Assembly: GCA_022396035.1 (NCBI GenBank)
Contig: JAIOXO010000004.1
Coordinates: 1-64,000 of the forward strand
DNA: 64,000 bases
Reading direction: 5' to 3'
Source: Actinomycetes bacterium
GTDB lineage: Bacteria > Actinomycetota > Humimicrobiia > Humimicrobiales > Humimicrobiaceae
Of the stretch, positions 31,087-45,496 are shown piece by piece. The position numbers and the translations under genes were made by a program. The notes under the pieces were generated by a model, which did not search any database, was not told the origin of the DNA, and saw nothing but the letters and a program-made list of their open reading frames with translations. Within the stretch, counting starts at the first letter, position 1. Each line of letters starts with the position of its first letter.

Positions 31087-31320
31087 ATGGAAGAGAAAAA
31101 TCTGATGCCGCTGGCATCGGTAAAACCAAATATTGAGATGACCATAGTAAATATAGCCGGTGGCTATGGAATAAGAAGGAAACTGGCGGATATGGGCCTG
31201 GTGCCCGGCACCAAGGTAAAGGTAGTAAGCAGAAACATGCTGGGGCCGGTGATACTTGCAGTCAGGAATTACCGTCTGGCTATAGGCAGGGGAGTAGCTT
31301 CCAAAATAATGGTTGACTAA
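31087..31320 (+). CDS. feoA: FeoA-type SH3-like protein
   Basis: A 77-residue protein with MPLASVKPNIEMTIVNIAGGYGIRRKLADMGLVPGTKVKV, typical of FeoA, a small cytoplasmic partner of the ferrous iron transporter FeoB. No feoB follows; the accC gene converges and overlaps by four bases. It may serve a distant feoB or be a free-standing FeoA-like regulator. Confidence 0.88.
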   Translation: MEEKNLMPLASVKPNIEMTIVNIAGGYGIRRKLADMGLVPGTKVKVVSRNMLGPVILAVRNYRLAIGRGVASKIMVD

Positions 31321-32657
31321 ACTCCCAGTTCTTCTTCAATGAAGTGGGTATGTATTTTGCCTTCAACAAATTTTTTATTTTCCAGCACTTTCTTATAAAA
31401 CGGTATGGTGGTTTTTATTCCTTCCACCTTAAATTCTTCCAAAGCTCTTTTTGATCTGGCAATGGCTTCGGTGCGGTCATTTCCCCAAACTATGAGTTTG
31501 GCTATCAGTGAATCATAAAAAGGGGATATGGTGTAATTTGAATGTATAAATGTATCCACCCTGATTCCCGGACCTCCCGGCAGGTAATAGTCGGTTATTT
31601 TGCCGGGCGAAGGCGAAAAATTCTTATCGGGATCTTCTGCATTTATCCTGAATTCTATGCTGTTTCCCCGGTCCAGCTGGTTATTCCTTGGCTTAAGCTT
31701 TTCCCCGGCAGCCAGTTTAATCTGCTGTTTAACAAGATCCATACCGGTTACCATTTCGGTTACCGGATGCTCAACCTGTATCCTGGTGTTTATCTCTATA
31801 AAATAGAAATTGTTATGACTGTCCAGCAGGAATTCTATGGTTCCCAGGTTCTGGTAATCAATGCACCGGGCTGCTTTTATGGCCACTTCCGACATTACTC
31901 TGCGGTCTCTGGCAGACAGGGCTGTTGAGGGCGCTTCTTCTATCAATTTCTGGTGTCTTCTCTGTATGGAACATTCCCTTTCCCCCACGCATGAGATATG
32001 GCCGTAGTTGTCGGCAATAATCTGAAATTCAATATGCCGCGGTCTGGGGATATATTTCTCTATGTAGACTTCTCCGGTGCCAAACGATGATCTGGATTCG
32101 GAAATAGCGACCGGGAAATATTCTAAAAGCTCTTTTTTATTATTGCAGATCCGCATGCCTTTTCCGCCCCCGCCGAAGCTGGCTTTTATTATCAGGGGGT
32201 AACCTACTCTGGCGGCAATCTTTGCTGCCTGCCTGGTATCAGTAACGTTGCCTGACGAGCCGGGTATTACCGGAATCCTGTTTTCCTTCATTACTTCTAT
32301 TGCCCTGGATTTATTGCCGGCCAGCATAATGGCCTGCTTTGGAGGACCGATAAAGGTTAGGTCATTCTGGTTGCAGGCATCTACCAGTGACTGGTTTTCA
32401 GATAAAAAACCATAGCCGGGATGAAGGGCATCACAGCTGGTGATTTCTGCAGCAGAAATAATGTTTTTAATATCCAGGTAACTCTTCTGAGGCGGAGGGG
32501 GGCCAATGCATATGCTGCGGTCAGCAATCCTGGTATGGATGGAATCCCGGTCTGCAGTAGAATACACTGCTACTGTTTCCAGTCCCAGTTCTTTGCAGGC
32601 CCTGATTATTCTTATGGCTATTTCCCCCCGGTTGGCCACCAGGACTCTTTTAAACAA
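31317..32657 (-). CDS. accC: Biotin carboxylase subunit (AccC type)
   Basis: Carboxylates biotin on its carrier protein using ATP and bicarbonate. The 446-residue ATP-grasp enzyme has VLVANRGEIAIRIIRA, HPGYGFLSEN, the Gly-rich loop GGGGKGMRI, and FIEINTRIQVEHPVTEMVTG. TTG start with AAGGGG seven bases before it, one base after the fused carrier gene stops. Its carrier is very probably the AccB domain encoded by the preceding gene; the matching carboxyltransferase could be AccA/AccD further along the window. Confidence 0.94.
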   Translation of the reverse strand: MFKRVLVANRGEIAIRIIRACKELGLETVAVYSTADRDSIHTRIADRSICIGPPPPQKSYLDIKNIISAAEITSCDALHPGYGFLSENQSLVDACNQNDLTFIGPPKQAIMLAGNKSRAIEVMKENRIPVIPGSSGNVTDTRQAAKIAARVGYPLIIKASFGGGGKGMRICNNKKELLEYFPVAISESRSSFGTGEVYIEKYIPRPRHIEFQIIADNYGHISCVGERECSIQRRHQKLIEEAPSTALSARDRRVMSEVAIKAARCIDYQNLGTIEFLLDSHNNFYFIEINTRIQVEHPVTEMVTGMDLVKQQIKLAAGEKLKPRNNQLDRGNSIEFRINAEDPDKNFSPSPGKITDYYLPGGPGIRVDTFIHSNYTISPFYDSLIAKLIVWGNDRTEAIARSKRALEEFKVEGIKTTIPFYKKVLENKKFVEGKIHTHFIEEELGV

Positions 32658-32658
32658 A

Positions 32659-34446
32659 TTACTGCCCCTTCCTGATTACCATTATGGTTTGCTCAAATTC
32701 TACCGGCTGTTCATTTTTCGCCAGAATCCTTTCTATAGTTCCGTCATAATCAGCAGTTATTTTATTCATAAGCTTCATGGCTTCAATTATACACAGGGTA
32801 TCACCTTTTTTTACCGGCTGTCCTTCTTGAACAAAGGCAGGTGAGTCAGGGGAAGGTGAACGGTAAAGGGTTCCCACTATGGGGGATTTTACCTCTATCA
32901 TGTCTTCTTCGTACCGGGGCTTCTGGTCCCGGGCAGCTGTTTCGGGTTCTGCTTTGGAGGAACTTTTATTTATGGATATTTTTACCCCATCTACTTCAAA
33001 ATCTATGTTTTCTATGTTGGAGGTTTCCACCAGATCGGTTATTTCTCTGAGTTTTTTCATATTTAATCTATCCAGGCTGTAATCACCGGCTTTTTTCTTG
33101 CCAACCTCCCCGGTTTTCCCCTGTTTCTTGTTAAGGAAAGCTACTGTTTTTTCCGGAAAAAAACAGTAGCTTAGAACATGTTCCTGCTTGCCGGTAATAT
33201 TTTTCAGTTCATTTTCACACTGCTGGTACAGGTCTACCGGCGGCTGTTCCCACTGCTGGCTGCCTTTTGCACCCCTGAGTATTTTTTCTTTTAAGTCACT
33301 GTCCATATCCTGGGGCGGAAGCCCATAGTAGCCGTTTAAAAATTTTTTAATTTCATCAGAGGCAATTTCCCATCTCTTATCGGATATTACTGTATTTAAA
33401 ATGGCCTGGCTGGCTATTATCTGCCCTATAGGGGTAGCCAGGGAAGGATTGCCCAGCTCTTGTTTTATCCTTATGATTTCCTCAATAACCTTATCTGCCT
33501 TTTCCACTTCCCCAATTTCTTTAAGCTGCCTGCTTATAGCGCTGATAAGCCACTTGGGCAGCAGGCTGTGGTCCGGTTCCGAAAGTACATAAGAATCTGA
33601 AAAAGAACTCTGGTTAAGGTAAGGGTATATATTCTTTTTTACATTCTCAAAAACCTGGATAAGCCTGGTCCAGTCAAGGTTGTGGGATAATCCTGTCTGC
33701 CTGAGGCTTAAAAGGAATGCAAAGATGGTGGGGCTGGAGTCTTGATATGAGGAGGGTAAAAAGCTTAAATCAACCCCTCCGCCTCCATTCAGGCAAGCCT
33801 GAAAATAATTTAATATTTGGATTCCCCTCATATTGTAGCCGCTTATAAATATGGGGATGCTGGTTAAGGAAGTTATGGATTTGAACAGTTCTGCTGTTCT
33901 GGAGGGGAAAAGAGTGGATTCCACATCTTTTATGCAGATACTGCTGCAGCCCATGTCTGTCAGCTGACTTACTTTATTATTATAATATTCTATAGGACGG
34001 CTGTAATCATAAATTATGGTTCCCTGCAGGCCGGCCCCGCAATCCAGTATCCTTTTGGCGGTATATTCTATATCATTTAAGTCATTTAAGGCATCGTAGA
34101 CCCTGAAAGACTCTATGCCATTTTCTATACACTGGCTTATAAACCGGTCTATTATATCTTTAGGGTATAGGTCTTCACCTACCAGGTTTCTGGCCCCTAT
34201 CTGTACCTGAAGCTTTAATGAGGGGGCCATCTTGTTTATATAGGAACAAATCTGGAAGGGTGATTTGTAAAAATAATTTTCCAGCATATTCTCAAAGGTT
34301 GACCCGCCCAGGACCTCTACGCTGTTAAAGCCTGTTGAGGGGTAATTTTCAAGTATATTGTCCAGTACCTGCATATCCAGTGTGTGCAGGGAGCTGTTCT
34401 GGAATATATCCCTTAAGGTGAGATCATTTACTGCTATTTTTTTCAT
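32659..34446 (-). CDS. Degenerate OadA/PycB-type carboxyltransferase fused to a complete AccB
   Basis: A 595-residue fusion. Residues 1 to about 440 follow oxaloacetate decarboxylase alpha / pyruvate carboxylase CT domains (LTLRDIFQNS, FRVYDALND, ICIKDVES, TPIGQIIASQAILN), but the metal-binding His-x-His is gone: LHLHCHATTG in OadA corresponds to IPIFISGYNM here, and RDAHQS is RDIFQN. The last 133 residues are not an OadA-type biotin tail but a full AccB: MKKLREITDLVETSNI start, disordered linker, GTLYRSPSPDSPAF thumb, and EAMKLM with the biotinylated Lys at about 558. Start ATG at 34446 has GGAGG upstream. Encoded between bioY and accC. Confidence 0.85.
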   Translation of the reverse strand: MKKIAVNDLTLRDIFQNSSLHTLDMQVLDNILENYPSTGFNSVEVLGGSTFENMLENYFYKSPFQICSYINKMAPSLKLQVQIGARNLVGEDLYPKDIIDRFISQCIENGIESFRVYDALNDLNDIEYTAKRILDCGAGLQGTIIYDYSRPIEYYNNKVSQLTDMGCSSICIKDVESTLFPSRTAELFKSITSLTSIPIFISGYNMRGIQILNYFQACLNGGGGVDLSFLPSSYQDSSPTIFAFLLSLRQTGLSHNLDWTRLIQVFENVKKNIYPYLNQSSFSDSYVLSEPDHSLLPKWLISAISRQLKEIGEVEKADKVIEEIIRIKQELGNPSLATPIGQIIASQAILNTVISDKRWEIASDEIKKFLNGYYGLPPQDMDSDLKEKILRGAKGSQQWEQPPVDLYQQCENELKNITGKQEHVLSYCFFPEKTVAFLNKKQGKTGEVGKKKAGDYSLDRLNMKKLREITDLVETSNIENIDFEVDGVKISINKSSSKAEPETAARDQKPRYEEDMIEVKSPIVGTLYRSPSPDSPAFVQEGQPVKKGDTLCIIEAMKLMNKITADYDGTIERILAKNEQPVEFEQTIMVIRKGQ

Positions 34447-34447
34447 G

Positions 34448-35005
34448 TCAGCTATTTCCTCCGGTTGACCACCGGTTAACAATGTTTGCCACCAGCAGCA
34501 CTTTTATTATATCAGCAACTATAAAGGGGGCTACAGCCAGCTTAAAGGTAGTGGCCACTGCCTTTAGGCTCAGGGCGTCCGGTCCCCAGAAATATATCAG
34601 CATATGTCCGTAGCCCAGAATATATATGGACAGCAGTCCGGCAGACAGGGACAGAATCAATCCTTTCCTTCCTCCGGTTTTGGTGTAGATATAGCTGGAT
34701 ACGAAAGAAGCTGCCAGAAATCCCATTATATAGCCGGCAGTAGGACCGGCAAGAGCAATGTAGGCATTTTTAAAGCCTGCAAATACTCCCATCCCCATAA
34801 ACCCTAGGGACAGATAAATTAACTGGGAATAAAAGGAATAGGGAAATCCTAGAACAATGGCCCCCAGAAGTACGGTCAATACCTGAAGGGTGAAGGGGAC
34901 CGGGGTGAAGGGAAGATAAAAAAAACAGTTTGCCCCTACTGCCATCATCAGGGCAAAACCAATGGTAAATACAATTTTTATTTTTGCTTTTTCTGCTACT
35001 TCCAT
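34448..35005 (-). CDS. bioY: Biotin transporter S component BioY
   Basis: A 185-residue membrane protein with about six helices; FTPVPFTLQVLTVLLGAIVLG near the N-terminus and ALAGPTAGYIMGF in the middle are BioY signatures. It captures biotin and may need the shared ECF energising module (EcfA/A/T), which is not here. SD GGAGGAGG precedes the ATG. It heads the operon with the AccB fusion and accC, so the operon couples biotin uptake with biotin use. Confidence 0.94.
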   Translation of the reverse strand: MEVAEKAKIKIVFTIGFALMMAVGANCFFYLPFTPVPFTLQVLTVLLGAIVLGFPYSFYSQLIYLSLGFMGMGVFAGFKNAYIALAGPTAGYIMGFLAASFVSSYIYTKTGGRKGLILSLSAGLLSIYILGYGHMLIYFWGPDALSLKAVATTFKLAVAPFIVADIIKVLLVANIVNRWSTGGNS

Positions 35006-37118: not shown

Positions 37119-38315
37119 ATGGATATAAAAGTTCTAAAAGATAAATGTACCGGATGCGGGCTCTGCTTGAGAGCCTGCCTGTATGAAGCTATAGAGATAA
37201 AAGACAAGATAGCAGAAATTAATGACAACTGCATATTGTGCGGTGCCTGTGTGGAAGCCTGCGAATTTGAGGCTATAGAAATGGCTGAGGTCAAGCCGGT
37301 CCAGGATTTTTCTGATTACAGGGGGATTATGGTGTATGTGGAAAGCAGCCAGGGGAAAATAAATGATGCCGGCCTGGAGCTTCTCAGCGAAGCTTACCAG
37401 CTTAACCGTGACCTGGATACCACCATATCTGCGGTATGCATAGGCCAAGTTGAAGAAGAAGAGGTCAAGAAAACTTTCAGTTTTGGAGCGGACAAGGCCT
37501 ATGTTTTTGGCCACAGTCTTTTTGAGCATAATCTTGATGACATATACAGCCAGGCTCTGGCCATACTGATTGAAGAAAAAAAACCGGAAATTTTTCTGGC
37601 GGCAGCTACCCCTTCTGGCAGGACAGTGGTACCCCGGCTGGCAGCCATGCTTAAAACTGGACTTACTGCCGACTGCACCGGGTTAAAAGTGGATAAGGAA
37701 AGCAGGCTTCTGGAGCAGACCAGGCCTACTTTTGGTGGAAATGTCTTGGCCACTATTGTCTGCAAGAACTCCCGGCCGCAGATGGCTACGGTACGCCCTC
37801 ATGTATTTGAGAAGAAGAAAATCTCTGCGGAGATGGAGCCGGATATAGAATATATGGATATCAAACCGGACAATTTCACCAGCGGTTACCGGTTTATTGA
37901 TACAGACTATGGGGTGGGTGAAGATATCAACCTTTCCGATTATGATGTAATAGTATCCGGCGGCAGGGGAATGGGAAAAAGTGATAATTTTTCTCTGCTC
38001 AGGCAGCTGGCGGACCTTCTGGGAGGCACAGTGGCTGCTTCCAGGGCGGCAGTGGATGCAGGCTGGGTATCCTACCCCCATCAGGTGGGCCAGACCGGCA
38101 AAACGGTTAACCCCAAGCTGTATATTGCCTGCGGCATATCCGGAGCCATACAGCATCTGGCAGGCATGCAGACCTCTGATATTATAGTAGCCATTAACAA
38201 GGACAGCCAGGCTCCAATTTTCAAGGTTGCCAATTACGGTATTGTGGGGGATGTGCTGGAGATAGTGCCCAAACTGATTTCCAGAATTAAGCAGGGGGGA
38301 CCTTTAATAGATTAG
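37119..38315 (+). CDS. etfA: Electron transfer flavoprotein alpha subunit with N-terminal ferredoxin domain
   Basis: Residues 1-60 hold two [4Fe-4S] motifs, [11 protein letters not shown] and [11 protein letters not shown]. The Etf alpha body follows, with [24 protein letters not shown] and the FAD-binding [43 protein letters not shown] and INKD. 398 residues. The extra ferredoxin domain is known in Etfs of anaerobes such as the caffeyl-CoA system and suggests electron exchange with ferredoxin. It overlaps birA by 12 bases, converging. Confidence 0.94.
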
Positions 38316-38975
38316 AATTGTTTCTATCTTTTCAAACAGGGCTGCAAAATCCTTTGTTTTTAGAAAATTAAAATAAACCTGTTCAAAATTATTTATTATC
38401 TCTGCAAGCAGTTTTTCCCTTGCCACCTTCTTGTTTAGCTGCTGGCTTATAGAGGTGGACTGGTGACCATATTTTTTTAAATCGGATAGATGGGTATTAA
38501 CATTTATACCTGTTCCGATATTTATATAACCAATTTGGCTGCCATTTTCAGTTTCGGTTAATATCCCTGCCAGCTTCTTGCCTTTACAGTACAGGTCATT
38601 GGGCCACTTTATGGCTACCTGCAGCTTATAGAGGGCATTGACGGCCCGGGCGGCTGCATAGGCAGCAATCAGGGTCATCTTTGGCAGGTCTCTATGTTTA
38701 AGTTCTTTTTTAACCGCCAGGGTAAAGTAAAGTCCTCCTGCAGGAGAGACCCACTCGGCTTCCAGCTTGCCTCTGCCCCTGGTCTGAATGTCAGCCAGCA
38801 GCACTGTTCCCGGAGCAATGCTGTCAGTTATTTTCTCCAGTTGGGCAGCATAGCTGTTGGTGGAATCAACAAAGTTAAAATACAGGATTGGTTTTCCCAG
38901 CTGCACCGTATTCAAATTTTTTTTATATAATGTTAAATTAAAATCATTCATAAAAAATATATGTTTTTTTAACAT
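38304..38975 (-). CDS. birA: Biotin-protein ligase, catalytic domain only
   Basis: Attaches biotin to its carrier Lys. The 223-residue protein has FNFVDSTNSYAAQL, ADIQTRGRGKLEAEWVSPAGGLYFTLAV (the biotin loop) and IKWPNDLYCKGKKLAGILTE. It lacks the N-terminal helix-turn-helix of repressor-type BirA, so it should not regulate genes itself. Its likely target is the AccB fusion at 32.7-34.4 kb. A second ATG at 38951 is an alternative start; neither has a strong SD. Confidence 0.92.
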   Translation of the reverse strand: MLKKHIFFMNDFNLTLYKKNLNTVQLGKPILYFNFVDSTNSYAAQLEKITDSIAPGTVLLADIQTRGRGKLEAEWVSPAGGLYFTLAVKKELKHRDLPKMTLIAAYAAARAVNALYKLQVAIKWPNDLYCKGKKLAGILTETENGSQIGYINIGTGINVNTHLSDLKKYGHQSTSISQQLNKKVAREKLLAEIINNFEQVYFNFLKTKDFAALFEKIETILIY

Positions 38976-42494: not shown

Positions 42495-43751
42495 ATGGAA
42501 AAAGATACCAAGGAAAGAAGAGTGGTAGTAACCGGGCTTGCAGCTATTACTGCCCTGGGGCTGGATATTGAAACTTTCTGGAAAAATATTATTGCCGGAG
42601 AATCAGGGGTAAGCACCATTGAAGGGTTTGACCTGGATAAGATAGGCTCCAAGATTGCAGCCCAGGTAAAAAATTTTAAGCCAGCGGATTTCATGGATAT
42701 AAAATTATCCAAAAGGATGGATCGTTTTGCCCAGTTTGGCTATGCTGGTGCCGGCCAGGCTATTGAGGACAGCGGTCTGGCTATTGACAAGGATAACGGA
42801 CACCTGGTGGGAGTATACATCGGAAGCGGAGTAGGAGGTTTATCTACACTGGAAACACAGCATATAAGAATGCTGGAGAAGGGTGCCAATCGGGTTAGCC
42901 CTTTTTTAATACCCATGATTATAAGTAATATGGCTGCAGCCCAGGTATCAATAATGAGCGGGGCTAAAGGCCCGGTAAGCACTACTACCACTGCCTGTGC
43001 GGCGGGATCCAATGCTATTGGCGATGCATATGAAATTATAAAGAGGGGCGATGCGCTGGCCATGATTGCCGGAGGCAGCGAAGCCCCCATAACCCCTCTG
43101 GGAATGAGCGGCTTTTCTAACATGAATGCTCTTTCTACCAGAAACGACCAGCCCCAGAAGGCTTCCCGGCCATTTGACCGGGACCGGGATGGATTTGTAA
43201 TGGGGGAAGGCTGTGGAATTGTTATACTGGAGGAGCTGGAGCATGCTTTAAACCGGGGCGCAAAAATATATGCAGAAATGTTCGGTTACGGGCTTTCCGG
43301 AGAGGCTTACCATATGACTGCGCTGGAACAGTCAGGGGAAAATGTAGCCAGGTGTATGAACAATTGCCTCCAGAAGGGAGACATTGGACTGGATGAAGTT
43401 GATTACATAAATGCTCACGGTACCTCCACGCCTTTAAATGATATTGTAGAAAGTACGGCCATAGAGAGATTGTTTGGAGAAAATGCTAAAAATATAAACA
43501 TCAGCTCCACCAAATCCATGACCGGCCACTGTCTGGGGGCTGCAGGAGCTATAGAATCGGTAGCTTCGATACTGGCAATTATTAATAATATTATTCCCCC
43601 CACCATAAACCTAGATAATCCAGATGACCAGTGCAGATTAAATTACACTCCCCATCAAAGCATAGAAAGGGAAGTTGATGTAGCTATTTCCAATTCCATG
43701 GGTTTCGGGGGCCATAATGTATGTCTGGGGTTTAAAAAATGGAAACCATAG
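42495..43751 (+). CDS. fabF: 3-oxoacyl-[acyl-carrier-protein] synthase II
   Basis: Condensing enzyme that elongates acyl-ACP, 418 residues. Catalytic Cys in TTTTACAAGSNAIGDAYE, His in NAHGTSTPLNDIVE and His in KSMTGHCLGAAGA. AAAGGA SD. The end overlaps accD by 13 bases. No fabH or acpP accompanies it. Confidence 0.95.
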   Translation: MEKDTKERRVVVTGLAAITALGLDIETFWKNIIAGESGVSTIEGFDLDKIGSKIAAQVKNFKPADFMDIKLSKRMDRFAQFGYAGAGQAIEDSGLAIDKDNGHLVGVYIGSGVGGLSTLETQHIRMLEKGANRVSPFLIPMIISNMAAAQVSIMSGAKGPVSTTTTACAAGSNAIGDAYEIIKRGDALAMIAGGSEAPITPLGMSGFSNMNALSTRNDQPQKASRPFDRDRDGFVMGEGCGIVILEELEHALNRGAKIYAEMFGYGLSGEAYHMTALEQSGENVARCMNNCLQKGDIGLDEVDYINAHGTSTPLNDIVESTAIERLFGENAKNINISSTKSMTGHCLGAAGAIESVASILAIINNIIPPTINLDNPDDQCRLNYTPHQSIEREVDVAISNSMGFGGHNVCLGFKKWKP

Positions 43752-44509
43752 TCTGTAAAAGCTGTAGCCGGAAGATAAGCTTAAAGAAATATACAGAAAA
43801 CCTGAATGTATGTTCCGAATGCGGATACCATGGCTGGGTTTCGGCTAAAGACAGGATAGAGATGACTGTTGACAAGGACAGTTTCAATGAACTTGCCGAC
43901 AGGATCAGGTCAGAAGATTTTCTAAAATTTGTAGACCTTAAAGCTTATTCTGAAAGATTAGATGAAGCCAGGGCAAAAGCAGGCATTGATGAAGCTATAC
44001 TGGTTGGTTCTGCTGCCATAGAAGACAGGCCGGTGGCCATAGGCGTGATGGATTTTTCTTTTATGGGCGGAAGCATGGGCAGCGTGGTGGGTGAAAAGAT
44101 AAAGATTTTAAGCCAGTACAGCCTGAAGAATTTATTGCCTTTAATAATATTTTCCGCTTCCGGGGGAGCCAGGATGCAGGAAGGCATACTTTCGCTGATG
44201 CAGATGGCTAAGACAGTTTCCTGCATGAGGAGGCTGGCAGATAAAAAAATACCTTTTTTGTCAATAATAACCAACCCAACCACCGGGGGAGTAAGTGCCA
44301 GCTTTGCTTCCATAGCCGACATTGTAATTGCAGAGCCGGGGGCACTGTTTTGTTTCGCAGGTCCCAGGGTGGTAAAACAGACCATAAATAAAGAGCTGCC
44401 CAAAGATTTTGGAACAGCGGAAAGAGATGTTGAAAACGGACAGATAGATATGATTATTGAAAGAAATCAAATTAGGGATTCCCTGATAAGGTTGCTAAAC
44501 TTTTTTTAA
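43739..44509 (+). CDS. accD: Acetyl-CoA carboxylase carboxyltransferase beta subunit
   Basis: Together with AccA transfers the carboxyl group from biotin to acetyl-CoA. The 256-residue protein has the zinc ribbon CKSC and CSEC near the N-terminus and the crotonase-fold segments SASGGARMQEGI and TTGGVSASFASIADIVIAEPGA. Overlaps fabF, so translation is coupled. Confidence 0.95.
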   Translation: METIVCKSCSRKISLKKYTENLNVCSECGYHGWVSAKDRIEMTVDKDSFNELADRIRSEDFLKFVDLKAYSERLDEARAKAGIDEAILVGSAAIEDRPVAIGVMDFSFMGGSMGSVVGEKIKILSQYSLKNLLPLIIFSASGGARMQEGILSLMQMAKTVSCMRRLADKKIPFLSIITNPTTGGVSASFASIADIVIAEPGALFCFAGPRVVKQTINKELPKDFGTAERDVENGQIDMIIERNQIRDSLIRLLNFF

Positions 44510-44518
44510 GGGGCATAA

Positions 44519-45496
44519 ATGGATTTAAAAGATTTAAAAAATATACCAAAGAACTATTTAAAAGATACCTTAAAGTCTTTTCTAAAACTGGAGAAACTAA
44601 AGAAGACATCCTTTTTTAACCGGGTGCATTTCAAGCAGGCGGAAAAAGAACTTCTAAATAAAGTAGAAGATTACAGAAGGGTAGAGAGACAGGCTGCCAG
44701 GACCTGGAAGATAGTCCAGCTTTCACGGGATGAAAAAAGACCCCAGAGCATAGATTACATAAGCCGTATATTTGATGATTTCATGGAACTAAAGGGAGAC
44801 CGGCTGGGCGGCGATGACAAGTCCATTGTATCCGGGCTGGGAAAACTAAATGAAACTACGGTGGCGGTAATCGGCCATAATAAAGGAAGGGATATCAAAG
44901 AAAGGGTAAAATATAATTTTGGCATGAGCAGCCCCTCCGGATATCGTAAATCACAGAGAATAATGAGGCTGGCTGATAAATTTAATTTCCCCATAATTAC
45001 TTTTGTGGATACACCGGGTGCATACCCGGCTCTGGAAGCAGAGGATAACGGCCAGGCAGGGGCTATTGCCCAGAGCATAAAGCTTATGTTTGAGGTAAGT
45101 GTCCCCATAATAACAGTATTGATTGGCGAAGGCGGAAGCGGGGGAGCCCTGGCGCTGGCTATAGGAAATGAAGTTTTAATGCTTGAAAATTCAACTTATT
45201 CGGTAATATCACCGGAAGGGTGCGCGGCTATTCTCTGGAAGGATGCTGCAGGGTCCAAACTGGCGGCACAGGCCTTAAAAATTACTGCCAGGGACCTATA
45301 CCGGCTAAAGGTGGTGGACCGGGTTATACATGAGCCTCTGGGCGGGGCCCAGAACAATATGGACAGGAGTATAAATATTGTAAAAAAGCATCTGGTGCTG
45401 GCCCTAAAGGAACACCGGAGCAAACCACAAGATCAGCTAAAGCAGGAACGGGCTGAAAAATTTGAAGCTCTGGGTAAATTTATCACCAGAGACTAA
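44519..45496 (+). CDS. accA: Acetyl-CoA carboxylase carboxyltransferase alpha subunit
   Basis: Partner of AccD, 325 residues. LKGDRLGGDDKSIVSGLGKL, FVDTPGAYPALEAED and IGEGGSGGALALAIGNEVLM form the active site. The fab/acc operon lacks accB and accC; those functions are encoded at 31.3-34.4 kb. Converging overlap of four bases with pknB. Confidence 0.95.
   Translation: MDLKDLKNIPKNYLKDTLKSFLKLEKLKKTSFFNRVHFKQAEKELLNKVEDYRRVERQAARTWKIVQLSRDEKRPQSIDYISRIFDDFMELKGDRLGGDDKSIVSGLGKLNETTVAVIGHNKGRDIKERVKYNFGMSSPSGYRKSQRIMRLADKFNFPIITFVDTPGAYPALEAEDNGQAGAIAQSIKLMFEVSVPIITVLIGEGGSGGALALAIGNEVLMLENSTYSVISPEGCAAILWKDAAGSKLAAQALKITARDLYRLKVVDRVIHEPLGGAQNNMDRSINIVKKHLVLALKEHRSKPQDQLKQERAEKFEALGKFITRD

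Follow-up and report, generated by a model that had tools for sequence, protein, structure and literature searches.

The locus and its genes

The window, the whole stretch of 64,000 nucleotides analysed here, carries on its reverse strand a 595-residue frame in which a pseudo-carboxyltransferase of the pyruvate carboxylase subunit B (PycB) type is joined to a complete biotin carrier of the acetyl-CoA carboxylase (ACC) type, AccB (BCCP). The relevant features are:

31317-32657 (-), accC, biotin carboxylase, 446 aa (TIGR00514, above cut-off)
32659-34446 (-), pseudo-PycB/AccB fusion, 595 aa, the only BCCP found in the genome
33577-34446 (-), residues 1-290 of the fusion, predicted inactive carboxyltransferase (CT) (beta-alpha)8 barrel, with S202/Y204 for His-x-His and G84 for Arg
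33835-33843 (-), His-x-His replacement site in the fusion
33121-33576 (-), residues 291-442, PYC_OADA conserved carboxylase domain (PF02436, 81.5 bits)
32662-33066 (-), residues 461-595, complete AccB (TIGR00531, 119 bits)
32773-32775 (-), codon of K558, the predicted biotinylated Lys of EAMK
34448-35005 (-), bioY, biotin transporter substrate-binding component (PF02632)
38304-38975 (-), biotin protein ligase, BirA ligase domain only (TIGR00121)
43739-44509 (+), accD, in the fab operon (TIGR00515)
44519-45496 (+), accA, in the fab operon (TIGR00513)

The fusion frame is uninterrupted, with an ATG at 34446 preceded by GGAGG and a stop codon at 32661-32659. Gaps of 1 nt separate it from bioY on one side and from accC on the other, and the bioY-fusion-accC operon is conserved in relatives; accD and accA close the fab operon (43739-45496). 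Both arrangements had been described in the first-pass annotation and are seen here. The gene for the biotin protein ligase, a 223-residue protein without the BirA DNA-binding domain, lies in the region that also contains bioY and the fusion gene. A frame error joining two genes was considered and rejected: one ORF is conserved in about 20 species, and full-length homologues of the same architecture occur in sister genomes (50-66% identity), so the single 595-residue frame annotated initially stands.

Architecture of the fusion protein

Residues 1-442 match PycB, OadA and transcarboxylase 5S (5ks8, E=2e-62; also 1rqb and 2nx9), and the best NCBIfam names for the fusion are PycB/OadA-like. Though related, this N-terminal part falls below every curated cut-off of the PycB, OadA and 5S families, and the Pfam HMGL-like profile (PF00682), which matches an intact fusion (L039) at 60 bits, finds no match in the fusion of the window. 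Residues ~461-595 exceed the curated BCCP cut-off (TIGR00531, 115.2 bits) and comprise an N-terminal segment of helix and strands, a disordered linker (~496-508) and a biotinyl domain with an SPSPDSP thumb (residues 530-536), in which K558 is invariant in all aligned sequences. The tail is indeed a complete AccB, thumb included, as proposed at first; it does not set this protein apart from PycB-type enzymes, since dozens of intact PycB-AccB fusions also carry such a tail.

Structure prediction suggests that the dead CT domain still folds as a barrel rather than being debris. In an AlphaFold2 model made from a 53-sequence alignment, mean pLDDT is 86.9 and all eight barrel strands are present; pLDDT falls below 50 at residues 281-289, 446-460 and 496-508. 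Foldseek aligns the CT part with transcarboxylase 5S (1rqb) at a TM-score of 0.83 by target length (3.1-3.3 A), and with Vibrio cholerae OadA (2nx9) at 0.84-0.86.

The active site of the carboxyltransferase domain

Enzymes of the PycB/OadA CT family (DRE-TIM) coordinate their catalytic metal through two His residues, an Asp and a carbamylated Lys, and bind the substrate through the Arg of LLRGQN. The active site was compared across 95 proteins, using the numbering of the window's fusion; in the 57 intact relatives among them, fused and unfused, R12, D13, Q16, R84, K173, H202, H204 and T338 are all 100% conserved. The fusion has S202-G203-Y204 in place of the metal-ligand His-x-His and G84 in place of the substrate Arg; it keeps R12, Q16 and T338 together with the putative Asp metal ligand of RDxHQ (D13) and the Lys expected to be carbamylated (K173). 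Chance loss in a single genome does not explain this pattern: in the window's family (f1; 23 sequences, 10 genera) 0/23 members have His at 202 or 204 and position 84 is always Gly, while R12, D13, Q16, K173 and T338 are retained in 90-100% of members. We know of no characterised CT-family member that works without His-x-His.

The first-pass annotation had reported the metal site as lost. For the His-x-His this is borne out, both ligands being absent when CT domains are compared, with a correction of register: ISGY stands for LHCH, rather than FISG for HCHA. The accompanying claim that RDxHQS is lost was overstated, as R12, D13 and Q16 remain and the His of that motif is merely 78% conserved among intact enzymes; the change of R84 to Gly is more telling.

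Biotin carriers in the source genome

The source genome, 97.8% complete, contains two real biotin domains, those of the fusion and of a genuine OadA; no free accB or other BCCP was found in it, and AccC, AccD and AccA are each present in a single copy. Two candidates were discarded: a second strong biotinyl domain (contig C6) is not a free accB but a bona fide OadA, and a weak, sub-threshold third match (contig C18) is an RnfC-like protein rather than a BCCP. The lack of a free accB, the single AccC, AccD and AccA, and the separate OadA indicate that ACC almost certainly has the fusion as its only biotin carrier. The original proposal, that the protein provides ACC with its carrier, joined to a dead CT domain, gains support from this search, in which a free accB elsewhere in the genome was sought and only the OadA and RnfC-like matches appeared.

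The OadA gene of the source genome (G000, contig C6, 38836-40611; L004, 5828-7624) is followed by OadB, and its product has intact RDGFQS, FKD and HTH motifs. A separate OadA is seen in part of f1 only (G000, G001, G004, G007, G016, G023 and G028); many members have no second OadA at all. One f1 genome (G015, 98% complete) is without the fusion, AccA and AccD, which suggests that the whole ACC has been lost in one member.

Distribution and a proposed shared carrier

A single-protein search of genome contigs for relatives of the fusion returned none, and an alignment-based search of the contigs found one f1 member plus distant relatives. Within Actinomycetota, the phylum to which the uncultured f1 family belongs, a PycB-AccB gene with accC behind it is common, mostly with an intact CT domain, and the fusion also occurs in Bacillota (Desulfosporosinus, Thermincola) and a few other phyla. 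In 20 genomes with an intact fusion (completeness 92-100%), no protein other than the fusion matches TIGR00531 or contains PYC_OADA, and there is one biotin carboxylase, with AccD and AccA as the only CoA-type transferases. This combination implies that one AccC and one carrier would serve both pyruvate carboxylase and ACC in these genomes. Most of the genomes are MAGs, so that a free accB could be missed in any one, not in 20 of high completeness at once. In Anaerotardibacter muris CLA-AA-M13, an intact fusion is the only BCCP found. The first-pass annotation had asked whether genomes with the same fusion lack a free accB: the fusion proves widespread and the sole BCCP in these 20. Outside this set there are exceptions, namely certain Eggerthellaceae-like genomes in which a free accB is present as well.

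Several variants of this arrangement were observed. In six of the 20 genomes, the fusion carries the only PF00364 biotin/lipoyl domain found (L039 in G043, L160 in G067, L146 in G200, L154 in G241, L150 in G411 and L166 in G419). Families f17 and f33 (L042 in G053; L173 in G101) have an intact PycB-AccB fusion, bioY and accC and no true AccA; here, pyruvate carboxylase may be the only enzyme that uses the AccB-type carrier, or the carrier may work with another acyl-CoA carboxylase. In f5 and f19, PycB and a free AccB are separate, each beside its own biotin carboxylase gene. In the biotin carboxylase tree, the partners of unfused PycB form their own clade (100/98), and the partners of free AccB fall among those of the fusions.

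Because an intact-CT fusion is usual in much of the phylum, the dead domain appears to descend from a fusion that probably served pyruvate carboxylase and ACC alike. The f1 fusion is built from known parts and belongs to this wider pattern. The shared-carrier ancestor is apparently undescribed: no description of the fusion, the shared carrier or the pseudo-CT was found in the open-licence literature searched, which is not proof of novelty, and neither arrangement is mentioned in the portions covered of an article by Lombard and Moreira (2011; PMC3199775) and of a review of the PPO node (PMC8100219).

Repeated inactivation of the barrel

Dead barrels are found in f1, in a sister family (f3) and in a distant group (f16/f44/f56). 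In f3 (L035-L037 in G036, G038 and G037, respectively), HCH is kept and the carbamylated Lys is replaced by Met (ICIMDE); Arg12 is Gly in the two sequences that cover it. Either this is a different inactivation or the metal site is altered. f1 is complementary, with the Lys kept and the His pair lost, so the common ancestor of f1 and f3 probably still had a complete active site. A second sister family, f2, has an intact metal site, and in the CT tree f1 and f3 lie beside it, nested inside the fused clade; the f1 stem branch is long (1.56 changes per site), with new invariants afterwards. The f16/f44/f56 group has lost the metal site along with most residues of the pocket, yet the domain persists. 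The position of this group next to OadA in the CT tree is likely a long-branch artefact, and the accC tree was used instead: there, dead barrels fall into two distinct clades, and two changes are obtained over the full bootstrap range from 5% to 95%. A single inactivation for all dead members is rejected by the accC tree and by the complementary ligand retention of f1 and f3; the CT domain appears to have been inactivated at least three times, in f1, f3 and f16/f44/f56.

Selection on the dead barrel

Purifying selection still acts on the dead barrel of f1: its dN/dS is 0.10 and 0.05 in the two pairs whose dS is usable (0.3-1.1), similar to that of the BCCP domain in the same pairs (0.03 and 0.11); very close pairs give noisy omega values of about 0.25-0.6 at very low dS. 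When the barrel is divided into faces using the strands of the AlphaFold2 model, the mean entropy in f1 is 0.74 bits for the catalytic face, 1.59 for the opposite face and 1.52 elsewhere, and 0/5000 random residue sets are as low as the catalytic face. The contrast in intact enzymes is slightly sharper (0.59 vs 1.29 bits). Residues Q210, L227, S228, S232, Y234 and E176 are f1-specific invariants (e.g., in the motifs DLSF..SSY and GLQ). The f1 pocket thus seems to be still used for something, and the conservation of the former active-site face above other parts of the barrel makes docking or sensing likelier than an inert relic.

The ligand role does not extend to all dead barrels: in f16/f44/f56 the contrast between faces is weak (1.12 vs 1.44 bits), the active face is much less conserved, and a scaffold role would suffice. 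A purely structural scaffold without a ligand, i.e., a dimer or tetramer platform, a docking site for AccC or a spacer for the arm, is a possible, if doubtful, account of the f1 barrel too, leaving the carrier role unchanged. It would accommodate the predicted retention of the barrel and PYC_OADA fold, as well as the persistence of the domain in f16/f44/f56 despite the lost metal site and most pocket residues; it sits poorly with f1 itself, where conservation is highest on the C-terminal, active-site face, with family-specific invariants. The barrel had been described at first as a scaffold or effector-binding part; either function stays conjectural, and the conserved face tilts the choice towards ligand or biotin binding in f1.

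Residual or altered chemistry is possible in principle, given the retained R12, D13, Q16, K173 and T338. A barrel that is still catalytic, with a His-independent metal or none, and yields a second carboxylation or decarboxylation product would explain why these residues are kept and the pocket is constrained. It is improbable nonetheless: no f1 member has either His ligand or the substrate Arg, and the long stem branch followed by new invariants fits relaxation and repurposing. That the fusion is instead the alpha-type subunit of a decarboxylase or Na+ pump, as its PycB/OadA-like NCBIfam names and the OadB of the source genome might suggest, is very hard to credit, because a separate OadA with HxH present adjoins that OadB, the fusion scores below the OadA/PycB cut-offs and above that of BCCP, its neighbours are accC and bioY, and many f1 members are without a second OadA.

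A working model

The explanation favoured with good confidence is that the fusion acts as the ACC carrier, with a pseudo-CT that derives from a shared-carrier fusion and is kept as a barrel likely to bind a ligand or the biotin arm. The biotin protein ligase would biotinylate K558, AccC, encoded by the next gene, would carboxylate the biotin, and the swinging AccB domain would hand the carboxyl group to AccD/AccA. The N-terminal two thirds would be the remnant of an ancestral fusion of PycB and AccB, in which one carrier worked for pyruvate carboxylase, through the attached CT, and for ACC, through the separate AccDA. With the pyruvate site inactivated in f1, transfer to pyruvate would no longer occur, but the barrel is retained under selection. 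Since its former active-site face is the most constrained, the most likely role left to the barrel is to bind the biotin arm or some 2-oxoacid-like ligand, by which it would park or regulate the carrier.

A bolder extension, offered tentatively, is that throughout Actinomycetota one PycB-fused carrier feeds two unrelated carboxyltransferases, the PycB barrel and AccDA, and that the f1 barrel has become a sensor or parking site coupling ACC to pyruvate/oxaloacetate or to carboxybiotin. If a carrier is shared, the carboxylation of pyruvate to oxaloacetate (anaplerosis) and that of acetyl-CoA to malonyl-CoA (fatty-acid synthesis) would compete for the carboxybiotin of one protein. The repeated inactivations would represent a natural series that leaves a pseudo-enzyme on an essential carrier; the regulation of carbon flow by carrier sharing and the job of a retained dead carboxyltransferase become testable. 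Annotating such proteins as "pyruvate carboxylase subunit B" or "oxaloacetate decarboxylase" would lead metabolic reconstructions of these MAGs astray.

Comparison with known systems

Like the fusion, PycB, the beta chain of two-subunit pyruvate carboxylase (5ks8 chain C; ~25% identity), combines a CT barrel, PYC_OADA and a biotin domain, in that order, in a single chain and works with a biotin carboxylase that is a separate protein. PycB ends in a short tail, whereas the fusion has a full AccB with thumb, has lost the metal His and substrate Arg, and is partnered by an ACC-type AccC of 446 aa. OadA (2nx9), the alpha subunit of Na+-pumping oxaloacetate decarboxylase, and transcarboxylase 5S (1rqb) share the CT fold (TM-score 0.83-0.86); unlike them, the fusion is without His-x-His and does not lie beside oadB/G, the true OadA being encoded elsewhere in the genome.

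AccB/BCCP (TIGR00531; 4hr7 chain B, 1bdo) shares with the fusion the N-terminal segment, flexible linker, thumb and biotinyl domain, and likewise the context, with accC adjacent and accD and accA present; the fusion differs by an extra N-terminal pseudo-CT of ~460 residues. The direct relatives are PycB-AccB fusions with an intact CT, known from Actinomycetota (Eggerthellaceae and numerous MAG families) and Bacillota (Desulfosporosinus, Thermincola). They include f2, with its intact metal site, and have the same architecture and the same accC neighbour. In these proteins the catalytic residues are complete and the fusion is presumably both an active pyruvate carboxylase and a carrier, whereas the fusion described here carries its AccB on a dead CT domain.
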